Below, piece by piece: positions 19,451 to 29,805 of a stretch of DNA of 58,766 bases. Location: NCBI GenBank assembly GCA_902812415.1, contig CADDZJ010000016.1, positions 1 to 58,766 of the forward strand, in the 5' to 3' direction. The stretch's first letter is position 1. Every line of letters begins with the position of its first letter. The DNA is from Acidobacteriota bacterium (GTDB taxonomy: Bacteria > Acidobacteriota > Terriglobia > UBA7540). The translations under genes were made by a program, and so were the position numbers. The notes under the pieces are model-generated. The model had not been told where the DNA came from, made no database searches, and saw only the letters and a list, made by a program, of their open reading frames with translations.

Positions 19451-20020
19451 TCACCCCTCCCGTCCAACGCCTAATGCATCGGCGACGCGGTTGATGTAAT
19501 TGAACCAGGCGGCGATCAAGGTGATTTGCAGAATGGCGGAGTCGTCAAAGCCGGTCTGACGCAGCCGTTCGTGATCGGCGCGGCTGATTCTTGTTGCATC
19601 TTTCGTTAGTTGCACCACGTAATCCACCATCACGCGCTCGGCTGCCGTGAGACCGGCTTTAGTGTAATCGGTTTCCAGAGCCCGAACCAATTCTTCATCC
19701 AGCGTGACTCGACGCAGAAACTCTGCGTGCGATTCGATTCAATAATGGCACCGATTGGTCACTGAAACCATCGTCGTGATGATTTCGTGCTGGCGGCGGC
19801 TCAGGGGTAGCTCCGGCGACATCAGAACGCCAAACGTCGAAAAGGCGTGGTGCAGCGCATCGGGAATCAAGCTGTGCGACTCGACGATCTGCGCGCCGCC
19901 GCCCTCGGTCGGATGAACCGGGGTAGCGTATTCAATGGGATAAAACGCTCTCTGCGATTCCATCGCTTTGCGGAGCTTTTCGTCCGCCTCCGCCAAAGGG
20001 ATGGTTTTGATCCAGGCCAT
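19451..20020 (-). CDS. AhpD-like alkylhydroperoxidase, predicted selenoprotein (CxxU)
   Basis: The protein has 189 residues if the in-frame TGA at 19741-19739 is read as selenocysteine. It belongs to the peroxidase-related branch of the carboxymuconolactone decarboxylase/AhpD family. The conserved redox motif CxxCxxxH appears as C91-H-Y-U94-I-E-S-H98, so the TGA falls exactly at the second redox-active Cys. Coding homology continues without shift after it ([16 protein letters not shown]... to [15 protein letters not shown]), giving the normal family length. A hairpin with SECIS geometry follows the TGA. The start ATG has AGGAG seven bases upstream. Without Sec insertion the product would be a 93-residue fragment. 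Likely role: reduction of peroxides or related thiol redox chemistry in the cytoplasm. The alternative is a plain nonsense mutation of a TGC/TGT codon. Confidence 0.83.
19706..19735 (-). promoter_or_regulatory. predicted bacterial SECIS hairpin (AhpD-like gene)
   Basis: In the mRNA, 17 nt separate UGA from a 3-nt apical loop GTT. The core stem is seven perfect pairs (ACGCAGA with TCTGCGT). Below it are one bulged C, three more pairs (TCG with CGA), an A-G mismatch and two further pairs. Loop-first G and UGA-to-loop distance fit the published bacterial SECIS model, where the loop carries a G in its first two positions and lies about 16-37 nt from UGA. Confidence 0.78.
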
Positions 20021-20098: not shown

Positions 20099-23000
20099 TC
20101 AGAACAAAAGCTTAAGGGCGAATTGAATCAGCCTAGGCGGGAGCGCTTGCTGTATTTGGCCGAACGTGGTCGAGCTGATGTCGCCGTTCGGCAGCCGAAA
20201 GTTGGCTCGGTTGAACAGGTTGAAAAACTCCGCCCGGAATTGCAGCATTCTCGATTCGGCGACTGGGATGTTCTTGAAGGCGGAAAAGTCCCAGTCGGCG
20301 AAACCTGGACCTTGGATTACATTTCTACCTTCGCTCCCGTAAACACCCGCGGGCGTCGTGGACAGGTCAATGCGTCGGAACGCCCCCGTGTTAAACCACT
20401 CCGCAACGGTCTTCGATCCATTGTTGGGGTTGCCGATCAGATTGGGGCGGAAGGCTGAGAAGCCTGTGACCTCGGGCGCATCATAATTGAAACTCTCGTC
20501 CACCACCGTAAACGGCGTTCCAGTCATATATGTCGTGATGCCATTGACCTGCCAGTTCCCCAGTACGCGCTCATACCATTTTTGCGGCTGCTTCCAAAAC
20601 GGCAGCTCCCATTCGTAGCTCAGCACAAAGCGGTGGCGCGCGTCAAAGAGAGACCTGCCCCACTCGGCCGAAAGATCGAAAGGATTCTGCGCCAGGTCGT
20701 TGGTTCCCGCAATGTCTTGCGAAGAGGACCCCGCGATGTTGAAGGATGAGACATCATCGAGGGCCTTTGAGAAAGTATAGGAGGCAAGCATGGAGAGCCC
20801 GCCCCCGAACCTCTTTCGCAAGCTCGTCTGTAAGGCGTTGTAGGACGAGTTTGCGCCGCCACTAATCAGGCCAACCGAACTGTAGGTGCAATTTCCTGAA
20901 GCATTCGGCATGCAATAAGGGCGCTGCTGGTCAATATTATTCTGCTGATCGGCCCACACCTGGCCGGGCAGCGGAATCGAGGGATTGTCTTCGATGATTC
21001 GCGGCAATTTGGTTCCACTGGTGCCTACGTAGCCGATCTCAAAGAGCCAGTCGGTACCGAATGACTGCTGGATATTGAAGTTCCAATCCTGAACGTAAGG
21101 CAGCCGCAGGTGCGGATCGAGCGTCAGGAGCGTCATGGTTGAAGCGAATGGGGTTGCGAAAGGGTTGCCGTTGGCAAACGGATTGGAAAGGCTGCCCGGG
21201 AACTGCAATTGAGGCGTTCTGACGTACGGCGGAGCGCTGACGGGCGCCTGCAAAGGCCCGCCGGGCCCGTTGTAGTACGGATCGTAGAAGATGCCGTAAG
21301 CGGCGCTGACCAGCCATCGGGTGCTTCCAGTTGGATCCCAGGCCAAACCGATCCGCGGTGCGAAGGCATCCTTCTGTGTGGGAATTAAGCCTGCAGGAAC
21401 GCCTGTGTCCCCTGGATACAGGAGCCCCGGCGGAGCGTCGGGCATCACCTTTGATTGCATACCGGGCTCAAATAAGGCCGCCCGGTTGCGAATTTCCGTG
21501 TACGGCATGGTCAGGTCGTACCGCAATCCCAGATTGAGCGTCAGACGGGAGCTTACTTTGTATGTATCCTGGCCGTAGAAATCAAAGTCACTGCCACGGA
21601 GCCCGCGCGAAAGATCTCCCTGGCCCGTCGGCGAATTGCCGCCGCCTTGCAAAAAGAGCAAAGGCTGCCCGACCAGAAAACTCGCAAACGCGTTGCTGAT
21701 CGGAAATGGGATAAAGACGAAGAACCCGTTGGAGGCAATCCCGAAGACACTGTTGATCTGATCGCGGCGGAAATCGCCACCAAACTTCAGCTCATGCCTG
21801 CCGTGAATCCAGGTGAGCGATTCTGAAGCGGCAAAGGCGTTCTCAATAGTGTCCCGCGGACCTGTGATCGGGTCTCCGATACTTGCATATCCCCCTCCGC
21901 CGAACTGGATGAATGGAGGGCCAGCGGCAATGTTCAGCGTGGGCTGATACTGGAACCCTAATGAAGCAGGAGAGGTGTGGTTCTCGTGCTCATCATAAAG
22001 GAACTTGTAACGGAGGAACGACAGCCTCGTAATACCGAGCAACGAAGGTGAGAATGTATGTGTCAACTGCGCGACCACGTCCTGCGGACGATGGGCCTCG
22101 CCAACCGGGAAGCCCGGCACACCTGCGCCGGAGGTTGAAATAGGATCGAAGAGTGTGCCGTTTCCAAACATGTAGCGGATCATGAGCGCGTTGCGTTGGT
22201 TGAAGTACTGGTCCACGCGCAGGCCGAACTGATCCTCGTTATCGCGCAGGATCTGCTCTGCATTGTACAGATCCAACACGCCGCTTCGGTCTTTGGCGTT
22301 CGGCATTGGATAAAGCTTCAAGACTTTGGCCGCCGTGGGATCAATGAACGGCAAAGTGTTGTTTGAGAATGGTACCGGGGGCTGGGTGCATTGAGGCGGG
22401 TTTGGGCAGAGGTTTAGCAGCGGCCCTGGATCCTGGGAAAAGTTGCCCTGACGTTCAAGAGCCGAAGGGACTCGAACCCCATTGAGTGTTTCACCCTGGC
22501 GGTTGCGGAAGCCTTCGTAGTACCCGAAGAAGAACGTCTTATCCTTGCGGATGGGGCCACCCAGCGTGGCGCCGAATTGGTTCTGCCGATATTCGGATTT
22601 CTTGAAGCCATCGGCGTTTTCGAAAAAGTTAGCCGCGTCCACCTTGTCGTTGCGGAGAAATTCCCAGAGCGCGCCATGGAAATTATTCGATCCGGAACGC
22701 GTGACAATGTTGGTGGTCGAAGCGGCCTCGCCTCCAAACTCTGCATTGGCCGTGCTCGTCAGAACTTTGAACTGCGCGATGGCATCAATGGGCGGCTCAA
22801 GCACAAACCCGCCGTCCACGGCATTGTCATTGGAAGCGCCGTCAATGAGAAAATTATTTGACTCCGGGCGTTGACCGTTCACCGCATAACCTTATCCCGC
22901 TCGCAGCGTGCCTCCAGCCTGAGAAAGCCCCGGGGTTACAGGCACAACGCCAGGTTGCAGCAGTCCAAGCTGAGAGAAATTTCGGCCGTTAAGTGGAAGA

Positions 23001-23449
23001 TCCAATATTTCGCGCTCGTTAACGGTCATGCCAAGTGACGTGGCAGAGGTCTGGATGAGAGATGCGTTCGCGCGCACGTGCACCAGTTGTGTGGAGGAAC
23101 CAATTTCGAGATGGATGGGGACTGTCGCGGCTTCATTCACACTGAGCGTAATGCCTTCCTGGACGAACCTGCGAAATCCTCCTGCGGACGCTTGCAGCCG
23201 ATACTGGCCGATTGGCAGCGACACCAGGATGTAGGCGCCGCGCGCATCCGTCATCGCCGTCCGTCTCAAACCTGTCTCGACTAGGACGGCCGTCACTTGC
23301 GCCTTCGGCACGCCCGCCCCGCTCGGGTCGAACACCGTTCCGCGCAGGCTTGCCGTGACCTCCTGCGCGCACAGCGGGACTGCGGATAGCGCGGCCAAAG
23401 CCAGCAGGAGCATTGCCGCACCGACTGTCTTGATAGAGATCTTTTTCAT
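20099..23449 (-). pseudogene. TonB-dependent receptor (Oar-like) with in-frame TAA
   Basis: This is an outer-membrane transporter of about 1116 codons. A signal peptide (MLLLALAALSAVPLCAQ) is followed by a carboxypeptidase-regulatory beta-sandwich (LRGTVFDPSGAGVPKAQV), a plug with LDLPLNGRNFSQL, then SNNFLIDGASN and a long beta-barrel ending in an aromatic C-terminus (FALKLLF). A TAA stop at 22894-22892 interrupts it where relatives typically continue RAGxGYAVNGQRPESN. The frame is unbroken on both sides, so a single CAA-to-TAA change is the simplest cause. The substrate is unknown. It sits between the two selenoprotein genes in what looks like one transcription unit. Confidence 0.85.
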
Positions 23450-23568: not shown

Positions 23569-24276
23569 TCACCTGGCAGAAGGGGCCACGACTGACCGCA
23601 ACACCTTGGCCATGGCATCAGGTTTAAACCCGAACGGGCCGGCGCTGCTCTTGAAGGCCACGCGGCCTTCGCGGTCAATCACATAGAGCCGGTCCGGCCA
23701 ACCCGTGTAGGCGAGCTCGGTCGTGTCCTGCATGTCGTCCACGAGTGCCGGGACGTGAATGCCGAGTTTGACCACGCAGGTTTCAGCCGCGCTGTCGCGC
23801 TGGTGAAAAGTCTTGGCGCTTGCAATCAAAATGCCTTCCTTCAGATTGCTCGGCATCTCCCAACCGTCCGTGGGATGAGCTTCTTCGATATAGACCACGT
23901 AAAAGGCGGCCCGATCTTTGTACTGCGCGTAGAGTTTGTTGAGCGCGGGAACCTCCCGGCGAAAAGGCGGTCAAGTGTGGCTCCCAAAGATCAACACCAC
24001 GGGTTCCCGGCCACGGAATGAAGAGAGGCGCACAACTTCGGAACTGTTGGCTGTTTTAAGCGCGAAATCCGGCGCCGGATCGCCGATCTTCAAGTGCCCT
24101 CGGCGAGCAATCAGCCACATGGGTTCGAAGGGGAAGAGAACATAGGAAAATGTCGGCAGCATCGACATGATCCGCCCGAACACCGGAGGCGGCTGAAGCA
24201 TTGCGACAAAAAGCCCGCCGGCCAACAGGAAGTACACGGCGAGCACTGGAATAGCGTACCTCAGGAATTTTCGCAT
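23569..24276 (-). CDS. iodothyronine deiodinase family protein, predicted selenoprotein
   Basis: The protein has 235 residues if the TGA at 23973-23971 is read as selenocysteine (U102). An N-terminal transmembrane helix (about residues 8-27) is followed by a thioredoxin-like domain: IGDPAPDFAL, LSSFRGREPVVLIFGSHT, then U102-PPF. It continues with FYVVYIEEAHPTDGW and WPDRLYVIDREGRV, both hallmarks of the T4 deiodinase family, where the active site is U-P-P-F. Without the TGA the frame is continuous to a normal C-terminus, and a SECIS-like hairpin follows. Vertebrate relatives remove iodine from thyroid hormones; the bacterial substrate is not known, and peroxide or organohalide reduction are both open (inference). 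No clear ribosome site is seen at the ATG 24276. Confidence 0.86.
23943..23960 (-). promoter_or_regulatory. predicted bacterial SECIS hairpin (deiodinase-like gene)
   Basis: In the mRNA a hairpin GCCGGGA-GGT-TCCCGcGC follows UGA: seven base pairs with one bulged C on the 3' side. The apical loop GGT begins exactly 18 nt after UGA, the same distance as in the AhpD-like gene. The loop opens with two G residues, as in well-studied SelB-binding hairpins. The stem is all G-C except the closing A-T pair. Confidence 0.76.
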
Positions 24277-24682: not shown

Positions 24683-25016
24683 TCAGAGCTTCCGCAAGAA
24701 TTCCATCAGGTTCAGATCGTCTCGCAACCTCCTTTTTCGGCGACTTCCGCCTCCCGGATCGCAGGCAGCCAGAGCCTTCGCTTTCATTGCCAGGTCTGTT
24801 TCCGCGTAGATATTCGTTGTATCCACCGAAACGTGGCCCAGCCAGGCTCTGATCGTGTTGAGATCAACGCCAGCACGAAGCAGGTGGGTGGCAGTCGTGT
24901 GGCGCAAGTTATGTTCTGAGTTGGAGTAAGTGGCCTGGATTCAGGTGGTTAGGAGGATGCGGCGACCTTTAGAGCAAGTCTGCTGGATTCAACGAGTTAG
25001 TCGATTGAGCACGAAA

Positions 25017-25030
25017 AACTCAGAACATAA
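25017..25030 (-). repeat. internal copy of the insertion's end repeat
   Basis: AACTCAGAACATAA here is the exact reverse complement of TTATGTTCTGAGTT at 24909-24922, enclosing 94 bases. Confidence 0.75.
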
Positions 25031-25400
25031 TTTTCGAGGCTGGAAAACACATGAGTGAAGGACTCCTTATCGGAAATCCGCGATGAGATTCAGATCGGCC
25101 ACAACCACCGCAAAACTGACGTCCGCAGACCAATCATGCGCTCTCGTGGCTTCGCGCATGCCGTCCAGGTTTTTCGTGCTAGGCGCAGCGCAGTGACCGG
25201 CGGCGCTCCAGCATTGAGGAGGAAGTTCATCCAGTCCCTGGCCGACGGCCTGTGGAAAGAACCCGCGGCGCCTGAGGATTCAACACACAAAGTTATCAGA
25301 GCTCCTCGAGAAGTAAAAGAGAGAAGTAAAAGGGAAAGGCTATATAGAAACGGGGCTGAACAAGAAGGGAACTAAATCGGAAGCCAGAAGATCAAGAAAG

Positions 25401-25413
25401 ACTCAGAACATAA
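25401..25413 (-). repeat. second right-end repeat of the insertion
   Basis: ACTCAGAACATAA lies in tandem with the terminal copy at 25418-25431, with only four bases between them. This gives the right end a doubled recognition motif. Confidence 0.7.
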
Positions 25414-26616
25414 TCAGAACTGAGAACATAACGCAAACTGTGCGGGCCATAGTGGGGTAAGCGGAAGCCAAGTGCCCGAACGTGGCCGGCAATGCAACCG
25501 GATGCACCACCCCTCGTGATCGGCCTATACGGTTTGCGTAGCGTCAAAAACAGTACGCGCGAAGAACGTCGGGGCCGTACGTTTTGGAGGTATTTCAGAA
25601 TGGCATTGCCCACCTCGGCGGTTAGCGGATATTCCTGAATTCGCCTGTTCTTGAGTCGTCGGATGCGGATCTTTTCATTGGCCCAGTCCAGGTCTTCTAA
25701 AGTCAGCTTGCAAACCTCGCCTATCCGCAGACCGTATACCGCCAAAAGCAGAATCATTGCACGGTCGCGAATATGGCTCGCACGCCCTGTATTGAGATTG
25801 GCAATCAAACGCTGGATTTGTTCCCAACTCGGGCCTTCCGGAAGCGTGGCCATTGAATAGATGCGCGGACTCCGGATGGTTTCCGCCAATCCGGTCCTGC
25901 ACCAATTCTGCCGACTTGCGTAACGAAAAAAGGCCCGTAGCGAGTTACTGTATGCTTTGACTGTTGATTTCTTCCAGCCGCGTGCCTTGTTCTGAACGAA
26001 ATACCCCGCAAGGATTTCCGGAGACACGTCCTTCAGCGCGACACCCTGTTTTCCAAGCCACTCGAAGAAAAGGTTCAGTGCTGACTGGTGGGAGGAAATG
26101 GTTTCGTCTGTATATCCTCTTTCGTCCCGCAGCTCTTTAAGGAAACTGTCGAGTTCCGGTTTGAACTGGGGATTGCGGTCCGGATCACGCCACTTGCCTA
26201 AGAAACGAAACCAGTTCTTGGCCACGAAGATGAACCTTTTCGTCGCGGTCTCGCGCGTTTCGGCTGAGGAACTCGGCGCGCAGGTCTTCGAGCCCCAGTC
26301 ATTGGCTGCTCGCACGATCTGCCGTTCCGTGATCGGCAAACGTTGCCGGACGTTCACCCGCTCAGCAATAACCAGCAGAAATTTGTTGATCTGTCGGATG
26401 GTGCGCAAACCATGTCCGCGTTCGTTCAGGTCACAAAGGAAAGCCCGCCGCTCTTCGACAAAGCGGCCCGTCGAGTAGATCCATACCTTGTCACTGCGTT
26501 CCATTAGTTGGTCAAACATGTGACTGACTCCTTGGAGTGAATTTGAAATCAGCCAAGTATGAAAGTTATGTAGCCATCAGCGCACCCAGGAATCTGAAGG
26601 TAGGGGACTTCATGAA

Positions 26617-27429: not shown

Positions 27430-29805
27430 TCAGCGAGTTTCGAGCAATGCACAACTCAAGGGAGGAAGAGAGACGCTTACTTCGCCATTCATACGCCTCA
27501 CCTGGGATGTTACTGCCGACGCTGAAATAGACTCCGTAAATTCCCGGCCTAGTCTTGAGTCGGCGATTTGAACTTTCTGATTTTCCTTCGTCCAGTTGGC
27601 GAGGACAATCCCGAATCTGCCGCGCGGGTCACGCCATGCGGAGTGGAACACAGCCGGGATTTCATGGACGTCGCCGTCATTTTCCCATTTCATTGTCTTA
27701 ATGCCACTCACCTTGGCGGGCCGTTGCATTCTGCCAAACACCAGAAAGTCTTTGGCCTTGCCGCGCCTTAATGCGATCGTAGTCCGCAGAGCTTCCAGCG
27801 AGTCGTCATTGTTTCCAACCGGAGGCTGCCAGGGCGCCCAGTTGAAGGTATCTTTATTTAATAGCCGGCCGTCGCCGGTGATAACCCCGCCCGGGATTTC
27901 ACCGACCACCAGGTTATAAGCGCTTCGGATCGGCATGTGATACGGCTCAGGTGCCGAGCCAAAACCGCCCTGTATCAAGACAAACTCATGATAGAGGAAG
28001 TGATATAGAGGGATGAAATTCGTTTCCCATCCCTTATGCCCGGGAGGGATCACCCGCGCATCGCAAATCTGGAAGTCAGACATAAAGCACTCGTTGGGAG
28101 GCTGCTCTACGGAAAAAACAAGTTTGCGCGTCCCTCCACTTGCGTTTGTTGCTTCCACATTAATCCGCCGGAACTCCTGGGTGAGCGATTGCATGGCCGC
28201 TGTCATCCACTTGCCGGGATATGGTGGGTGGCCGTGATCCTTAGCAAAGCAAGGAAAAGTAGAGCATCCCACGTTCTGGTCAAGGAATTGCACCCAGTCA
28301 AGCCCGTCGTCTACGAGATGCCGGATGAAACCACGCGCAATCTCTGTGGTCTGGGGGACGCCCAAGCAGCAGGCGTAGCTTGGACGCCAGGTTTGGTCCC
28401 ACCACTCATGCCAAAGCTGTTGACGATGAGTTTTGCAGACGGTTTCCTCTCCATGGTGGTCCGAGAAATATCTTCTTCCGTCGTAATCCGTCCAAAAATG
28501 ATGGATCACCCAGCGGGTTCCGTTGCAGAACGATCCCACGTGCCAGCCGCGCTCCCTCATCAAAGCCGTGAATTCGCGCAGGGACTCGTCCCCGCCTGCA
28601 AGCGGAAAACAGTCAGGATAAATCCAGGGGCCAGGCCGCTCCCAAGACATGATGACGGCCACAATCGGAGCCTGGATTCTTTTTGAGATATTTTCCACAA
28701 GCGGCACAATCTTGGGGTAAGGAAGAAACTCCCGGTTTGGCTCGCCGGGCCCCATATCGAGCTGACCCTGGATTCTCACGATGATATGGGGCGGTGAATC
28801 GAGGAGCCAGTCGGGAACATCCGTTCGCTTATCGAGTGGTTTTTGAGCCCAATGTTGCTTCAAACTCCAATCACGGTAAAGCCCGGCTGCATCGTACCAG
28901 TCACCTGTAAAAGTCCGTAGCGCCACTTCATAGCCCAGACTTCGCTCGCCACTGGCTGGCCAATCCCCCACGTGCGCTATTCCAAGGCGAATGCCTGAAC
29001 TACTATGGACAGGCTTGATGAGTTTGATCGATCCTGAGGCATCGTGGCAAGCCAAATAAACGCCCGCGCGATTGTTGTAATAGGCCAGGAATTGGGCGAA
29101 CATGCTTCCCGGATAGTGGCTGGTGTCTCCATTCTCCGGACGAAATTGCCAGGCGTGAGGGCTGTCAGGTTCAAGGTCCTGTGGCTTGGGCGCCACGAAA
29201 AGGCGGCCATTGGAGTAAGGCTGGAGGAGCGCCTCGCTCTTGGGCTCACCCGCCAGGCGATACGCAACAACAATGAAAGGAAACTGCATGTCCGTGATGA
29301 GAAGATTTGCATGATTCTGGAGTGTAAGCGTCCAATAGGTGTTCGGATCACCCGCTGGGCTCCGAACTGTCACGGTCACGGCCAGGTCAAGCCCTGCGAG
29401 CCCATTGAAATCCGCTGTCAGAATCTTTTCCTGGCCGCCTTCAGCCAAAGCCTGCTGAGACGTTCGGATTCGTATCTCCCTGGCCTGGGTGGAAGCGATT
29501 TGGTGAAATTCGGCGTCCTGACCAAGGTACTGAATAACAAAGACAGGATGGTGGTCATCGGAAGGCACGAACTCCTGGTCAGCGGCGATCGCGGCGCGCA
29601 GCGAGATCAGTTGACCTGTCTCGGGATTAAATTCCAGACGGTGGTTGTCGTTGTTCAAAACTATCCGTTCAGACGAATCTGGGGCTTGCGCCTCCGGGTT
29701 TCCATCCGAGGCCAGAGAAAGCTTGGATGAGCCTGGTAGAAACCGCTGGAACCGCTTCGTAGCGAGCAATAAGGGCGAAAAGATCATGGTCCTTCGCGTC
29801 ATCAT
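27430..29805 (-). CDS. DUF6259-family putative glycoside hydrolase
   Basis: This is a large secreted-type protein (791 residues). An N-terminal beta-rich domain (LNNDNHRLEFNPETGQLISL) and a central TIM-barrel-like section (IVAVIMSWERPGPWIYPDCFPL, FIRHLVDDGLDWVQFLDQNVG) match proteins annotated DUF6259 and related to GH36-like glycosidases. The N-terminus TRRTMIFSPLLLA could be a weak Tat/Sec signal. Substrate and activity are not known. An ATG at 29802 has better spacing to the AGGAGG than the one at 29805. It lies just downstream of a TonB receptor on the same strand, suggesting uptake and breakdown of the same carbohydrate (inference). Confidence 0.72.
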   Translation of the reverse strand: MMTRRTMIFSPLLLATKRFQRFLPGSSKLSLASDGNPEAQAPDSSERIVLNNDNHRLEFNPETGQLISLRAAIAADQEFVPSDDHHPVFVIQYLGQDAEFHQIASTQAREIRIRTSQQALAEGGQEKILTADFNGLAGLDLAVTVTVRSPAGDPNTYWTLTLQNHANLLITDMQFPFIVVAYRLAGEPKSEALLQPYSNGRLFVAPKPQDLEPDSPHAWQFRPENGDTSHYPGSMFAQFLAYYNNRAGVYLACHDASGSIKLIKPVHSSSGIRLGIAHVGDWPASGERSLGYEVALRTFTGDWYDAAGLYRDWSLKQHWAQKPLDKRTDVPDWLLDSPPHIIVRIQGQLDMGPGEPNREFLPYPKIVPLVENISKRIQAPIVAVIMSWERPGPWIYPDCFPLAGGDESLREFTALMRERGWHVGSFCNGTRWVIHHFWTDYDGRRYFSDHHGEETVCKTHRQQLWHEWWDQTWRPSYACCLGVPQTTEIARGFIRHLVDDGLDWVQFLDQNVGCSTFPCFAKDHGHPPYPGKWMTAAMQSLTQEFRRINVEATNASGGTRKLVFSVEQPPNECFMSDFQICDARVIPPGHKGWETNFIPLYHFLYHEFVLIQGGFGSAPEPYHMPIRSAYNLVVGEIPGGVITGDGRLLNKDTFNWAPWQPPVGNNDDSLEALRTTIALRRGKAKDFLVFGRMQRPAKVSGIKTMKWENDGDVHEIPAVFHSAWRDPRGRFGIVLANWTKENQKVQIADSRLGREFTESISASAVTSQVRRMNGEVSVSLPPLSCALLETR

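Follow-up and report, generated by a model that had tools for sequence, protein, structure and literature searches.

The Sargasso Sea yielded bacterial deiodinase-like proteins containing selenocysteine (Sec) and using a bacterial SECIS in 2005 (PMC1088965), an ocean survey of 2008 reported such proteins again (PMC2398784), and reviews list the deiodinase-like family with a UxxC motif (PMC9312934, PMC13188914). The gene analysed here lies in a stretch of 58,766 nucleotides of Acidobacteriota DNA, hereafter called the window. It resembles the known members in its match to PF00837, in the Sec at the catalytic position, in the bacterial SECIS, and in having Cys homologues. With bacterial deiodinase-like selenoproteins on record from 2005 onwards, the gene is not a discovery in kind. 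However, its branch differs from the UxxC family of the reviews in carrying UPPF (UxxF), an animal-type loop, and a GPF tail, and from the known bacterial family in its N-terminal anchor, its invariant Cys167, and its occurrence in Acidobacteriota. The best NCBIfam match was NF038285 (deiodinase_rel), with 213 bits over model positions 177-340, which was below the cut-off of 250. The first about 176 model positions have no counterpart in the window protein, and the cut-off was passed by none of the genomes in a 199-genome sample of the phylum. In our literature search, with subscription papers outside its scope, no paper was found that links the deiodinase-like family to Acidobacteriota or to AhpD neighbours.

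The animal enzymes DIO1-3 (PDB 9h48, 4tr3) share with the window protein the anchor and the thioredoxin fold, the FGSxTUPPF motif, the Tyr, the EAHPxDGW motif, and the equivalent of Arg225, with about 31-33% identity over the catalytic region. However, the window protein is devoid of the animal Cys168/Cys124, His219, Arg275, and the distal Cys239, and its gene has a bacterial SECIS instead of one in the 3' UTR. Another related system is AhpC/AhpD, a peroxidase pair, as in Mycobacterium tuberculosis. The likeness lies in a peroxiredoxin-fold protein being genetically linked to an AhpD/CMD-fold protein with CxxC or CxxU. Nevertheless, the peroxiredoxin-fold member is here a membrane-anchored PF00837 selenoprotein, and the partnership is a putative one.

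The features of the deiodinase-like gene are as follows.
23569-24276, minus strand: deiodinase-like selenoprotein gene, 235 aa with one Sec (U102), ATG at 24276
23971-23973, minus strand: in-frame TGA, catalytic residue 102, predicted Sec from its column and its conservation in relatives
23943-23960, minus strand: bacterial SECIS hairpin, +11 to +28 after the UGA, apical loop GGU, from folding and covariation
23572-24090, minus strand: thioredoxin/peroxiredoxin-fold catalytic domain, residues about 63-235, from the AlphaFold2 model and alignment
24199-24273, minus strand: predicted N-terminal membrane anchor, helix of residues 2-26, N-in/C-out by the positive-inside rule

Elsewhere in the window, a tyrosine recombinase in two pieces about 480 bases apart (24683-26519, minus strand) was seen upstream of the deiodinase-like gene, and a gene for a large DUF6259 protein (27430-29805, minus strand) adjoins an MscL channel gene.

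The first-pass annotation had proposed that two frames join through the TGA at 23973-23971 into a complete thioredoxin-fold protein which standard gene calling would split. The coordinates were right, and ORF calling indeed cut the gene into fragments of 101 aa (23971-24276) and 109 aa (23569-23898). The TGA at codon 102 is the only stop inside the 235-codon frame, and the terminal codon is also TGA (23571-23569, minus strand). The read-through product matched PF00837 (T4_deiodinase) with 106.1 bits (2.3e-30; cut-off 27), and the residues downstream of the TGA were by themselves enough for a match of 75.5 bits (5e-21). Since both the product and its downstream part match the same profile, the homology continues across the stop. 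The motifs named in the first-pass annotation, FGSHT before the TGA, PPF directly after it, and YIEEAHPTDGW and WPDRLYVI downstream, were all present. By sequence, the top solved relatives were Dio2 (9h48, 1.8e-21) and Dio3 (4tr3, 1.3e-20); PF00578 (AhpC/TSA) also matched the product (3e-12).

To follow the TGA across species, 396 genomes of the phylum Acidobacteriota were searched with the PF00837 profile. All 21 TGA-bearing homologues that were extracted, among them the window's copy, had the TGA in one and the same column. This column, the Sec/Cys column of the PF00837 alignment, comprised 21 Sec, 10 Cys, and one Thr, and two of the Cys rows are PDB Sec-to-Cys mutants. A second scan of contigs used only the downstream-half alignment as a query and patterns without the TGA codon. 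At least 579 encoding loci were matched, indicating that the branch is common in Acidobacteriota. The best 80 of these loci were examined further; all were Acidobacteriota records, and the named relatives among them were nearly all metagenome bins. In each of these 80 nearest loci, all of the Sec type, the TGA stood immediately before PPF.

These data bear on whether the TGA could have arisen by ordinary nonsense mutation or by a sequencing error, or could be a true termination, with the downstream part a relic. Such lesions or errors do occur in the contig, since the adjoining TonB receptor gene contains a single in-frame TAA (22894-22892) at a codon for which the relative L121 has Gln; that TAA is either a recent lesion or a sequence error. 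However, the deiodinase-like TGA is kept at the same column in all the relatives of both sets, and the homologous stretch has no further stops. Nonsense decay in homologues, which the first-pass annotation had named as evidence against its reading, was looked for and not seen. Between the window gene and its 71% identical relative L024, the post-TGA part gave a dN of 0.21, a dS of 1.24, and a dN/dS of about 0.17. In distant homologues, dN was mostly lower downstream of the TGA than upstream, which is the opposite of the nonsense-decay pattern; the downstream half is, if anything, the better conserved one. On this cross-species conservation, together with the Sec machinery described below, the nonsense reading was rejected as exceedingly improbable. 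As a separate observation, the deiodinase-like frames of L030 (G341) and L044 (G285) stop short after the conserved active site, which resembles frameshift or decay.

The source genome (4.84 Mb, 261 contigs, 96% complete) belongs to a soil-type Acidobacteriota bacterium. The first-pass annotation had made its claim depend on Sec machinery in the same genome, and selA (586 bits), selB (372 bits), selD (377 bits), and a tRNA-Sec with the anticodon TCA (72.6 bits) were all found there. Across the phylum, selA was present in 21 of the 23 genomes with an above-cut-off TGA-bearing PF00837 gene, compared with 252 of 396 overall (Fisher p 0.002, a value that ignores kinship); the two genomes without a selA match do have selB. 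Decoding of the UGA as a different amino acid (Trp or Gly, for example), or general read-through of the codon, would be compatible with the open frame, and nothing further speaks for it. The homologues have Cys at the position, not Trp or Gly, the full Sec set is present in the genome, and the deiodinase-like gene itself terminates with UGA; the chance of such a reading is next to nil. The gene therefore almost certainly encodes a selenoprotein of the PF00837 deiodinase-like family, with Sec as the first residue of the active site, as first proposed.

The evidence for the SECIS stands at the family level. Taken alone, the window hairpin was unremarkable, with a z of -0.1 against dinucleotide shuffles and about -1.3 against synonymous resampling, and is thus weak evidence as a single sequence. 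In contrast, when 21 Sec genes were resampled synonymously, the 27-nt segment that starts 3 codons past the TGA had a mean MFE z of -2.05, the strongest value of the Sec genes along the gene, compared with 0.00 in 8 Cys homologues. For 66 distinct sequences from the close set, the MFE z was -2.1 with genome codon usage and -1.5 with the stretch's own codon pool, and the apical GG was invariant. Among 22 diverse sequences, compensatory change was found in all five stem pairs; paired cells made up 80% at the true register versus 41-54% when slid, and the stem covariation was 0.527 versus 0.13-0.26. By computation, all the parts required for Sec insertion at residue 102 are present.

The AlphaFold2 model of the 235-aa product (pLDDT 93.2, pTM 0.88) opens with a long helix (residues 2-26), which short linker helices connect to the thioredoxin-fold domain. 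Among 350,542 chains, Foldseek ranked mouse Dio2 (TM 0.82) and mouse Dio3 (TM 0.77), by target length, first and second, followed by ResA, DsbE-like, and AhpE-type proteins. A viral fold library gave weak matches only, one of them a Terrestrivirus protein named iodothyronine deiodinase. When the two solved animal chains were included in a tree, they were placed beside the f41 group (FGSCT motif), with a branch length of 3.1 and long-branch warnings; because of this long branch, no claim is made on animal origin. In another locus (L033:1480-3216), a Cys-form deiodinase-like domain forms the end of a 579-aa protein, preceded by tetratricopeptide-like repeats.

To compare the active sites, residues were mapped by Dio3 numbering, with their roles taken from PMC7506546. 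Ser167, Thr169, Sec170, Tyr197, Glu200, His202, Trp207, and Arg225 of Dio3 correspond to S99, T101, U102, Y129, E132, H134, W139, and R160 of the window protein, all invariant in 80 of 80 relatives. P103, P104, and F105 complete the UPPF, equally kept in 80/80. The sole other conserved cysteine, C167 (80/80), sits in the helix after the loop. The first-pass annotation had seen here the exact layout of the deiodinase active site. This holds for the anchor residues, but not for three other positions. The proximal Cys (C124 of DIO1, Cys168 of DIO3) is absent, with His100 in the window and Tyr in 75 of 80 relatives; the His219 equivalent is A154 in the window, Pro in 66/80, and His in 1/80; and the Arg275 equivalent, at or next to which the deiodinases carry a basic residue, is A212. 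The DIO1 counterpart of Cys168 makes a selenenyl-sulfide (PMC9141512), and His219 is common to DIO1-3 and tied to substrate affinity (PMC7506546). The proximal Cys is not universal among deiodinases, since DIO2 itself has Ala there. The catalytic anchor is thus animal-like, and the features associated with thyroid-hormone binding and glutathione recycling have not been retained. Since the proximal Cys, His219, and Arg275 are missing and Cys167 is found instead, iodothyronine is unlikely as the substrate.

A deiodinase-type reductive dehalogenase, which would use Sec to take iodine or another halogen off natural or man-made soil haloaromatics, was weighed on the same residues. Animal Dio has the Sec, PPF, Ser/Thr, Tyr, Glu, His, Trp, and the EAHPxDGW loop in common with the window protein, and the animal activity requires the equivalents of His202, Glu200, and Thr169 (PMC7506546). 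However, His219 is replaced by Ala or Pro, Arg275 by Ala, and the proximal Cys by Tyr or His; no halogen-related neighbour recurred in the first neighbour survey (which took ORFs of 100 aa or more and treated TGA as a stop), and the genes that are associated are of the AhpD type. A dehalogenase is thus rather improbable.

By the positive-inside rule, 64 of the 80 sequences scored have the N-terminal helix N-in. With the helix N-in, the catalytic domain would sit outside the cytoplasm, in the periplasm. A ResA-like N-in/C-out anchor, together with ResA and DsbE-like proteins being the fold matches next after Dio2 and Dio3, would suit a periplasmic thiol-disulfide oxidoreductase of the ResA/TlpA type, with Sec serving disulfide reduction. 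Nevertheless, the protein has neither CxxC nor UxxC, with Phe at the second position of the motif in every one of the 80 relatives, and the deiodinases are closer by both sequence and fold; we consider this function unlikely.

A second selenoprotein gene, overlooked in the first-pass annotation along with its association with deiodinase-like genes, was found about 3.5 kb from the deiodinase-like gene on the same strand.
19451-20020, minus strand: AhpD/CMD-like selenoprotein gene, 189 aa, motif CHYU, two short ORFs joined via a TGA
19739-19741, minus strand: in-frame TGA of the AhpD-like gene, residue 94, predicted Sec
19712-19728, minus strand: SECIS hairpin of the AhpD-like gene, +11 to +27, loop GUU
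20099-23449, minus strand: TonB-type outer-membrane receptor gene between both selenoprotein genes, a neighbour and not part of the mechanism

The AhpD-like product matched PF02627 (4e-10) and TIGR01926 (113 bits, cut-off 82). Its hairpin has the register of the deiodinase-like one, +11-17 pairing with +21-27 and the loop starting with G. Matches to the AhpD-like protein were found in 39 of 199 phylum genomes, and nearly all of them carry one TGA; at the Sec column, TGA stood in 24 of 25 aligned loci (the window included) and Cys in one. The selD of the source genome (L050:1405-2457, G000:C37) was also observed to have its own in-frame TGA, in a GUAAK motif. Since selD itself is of the Sec type and 5 of the 11 CMD matches listed for this genome carry an in-frame TGA, the organism probably uses many selenoproteins.

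In the first neighbour survey, only the abundant TonB receptors recurred (13 of 63 loci), and the deiodinase-like gene was read as solitary. That survey was blind to TGA-split genes. The solitary reading was overturned when 109 deiodinase loci of relatives were searched with the read-through AhpD protein as the query. An AhpD-like gene was found at 9 of the 109 loci, and at seven of them (L060, L075, L089, L113, L115, L121, and L127) it was the immediate neighbour on the same strand, with a spacing of -4 to 159 nt; six of these seven adjacent genes are CxxU. The chance expectation is about 0.15 within 300 bp at 2.3 CMD genes per Mb. The loci do not count as independent, L113, L115, and L127 being alike; still, the adjacent pairs comprise no fewer than two AhpD subtypes and two gene orders. 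In the window, as in its close relative L055, the two genes are separated by a TonB receptor gene. The association was seen in a minority of the loci, and some of these are closely related. Outside the phylum, on a plasmid of Mycolicibacterium vanbaalenii (L160:2330-3717), a CMD gene overlaps a Cys-type deiodinase-like gene by 4 nt, and a glutaredoxin gene follows; both partners are Cys-form there, whereas both are usually Sec in the Acidobacteriota pairs.

Taken together, the window gene probably encodes a genuine Sec protein that is a Sec-dependent reductase or peroxidase with an AhpD-type partner. For the function itself, our tentative best guess, drawn from the PF00578 match, the neighbouring AhpD-type genes, and the conserved Cys167, is a membrane-anchored, peroxiredoxin-like reductase that depends on Sec and works with AhpD-type partners. 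SelB and the tRNA-Sec would decode the UGA codon 102 as Sec via the hairpin directly downstream, and the product would combine the N-terminal membrane anchor with a peroxiredoxin-like thioredoxin fold in which Sec102 is the nucleophile. Sec102, presumably held by the Ser/Thr/Tyr/Glu/His/Trp/Arg network as in animal deiodinases, would attack a peroxide or other electrophile, the invariant Cys167 may then resolve the oxidised Se, and electrons would come from the AhpD-type dithiol partner, itself often a CxxU selenoprotein. The AhpD-like proteins have no evident export signal, so an exported catalytic domain and a signal-less AhpD-like protein would be kept apart. Either the predicted topology is in error, or the two share a pathway without direct contact.

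It is conceivable, though doubtful, that the deiodinase-like and AhpD-like proteins form one two-component Se-dependent system reducing peroxides (or organohalides), with the pair kept from Acidobacteriota (Sec/Sec) to Actinomycetota (Cys/Cys) and the animal deiodinases being repurposed descendants of the first component. What is new here is the second, AhpD/CMD-like selenoprotein in the window and the AhpD-deiodinase gene association. Because they are split at the TGA, deiodinase-like genes are easily missed in annotation, and the window branch is a large one, with UPPF and near the animal enzymes in loop and motif. The native role of the bacterial deiodinase-like selenoproteins has been a standing question since 2005, and the recurring AhpD-type neighbour is the best clue to their function, offering a concrete and testable partner and reaction.
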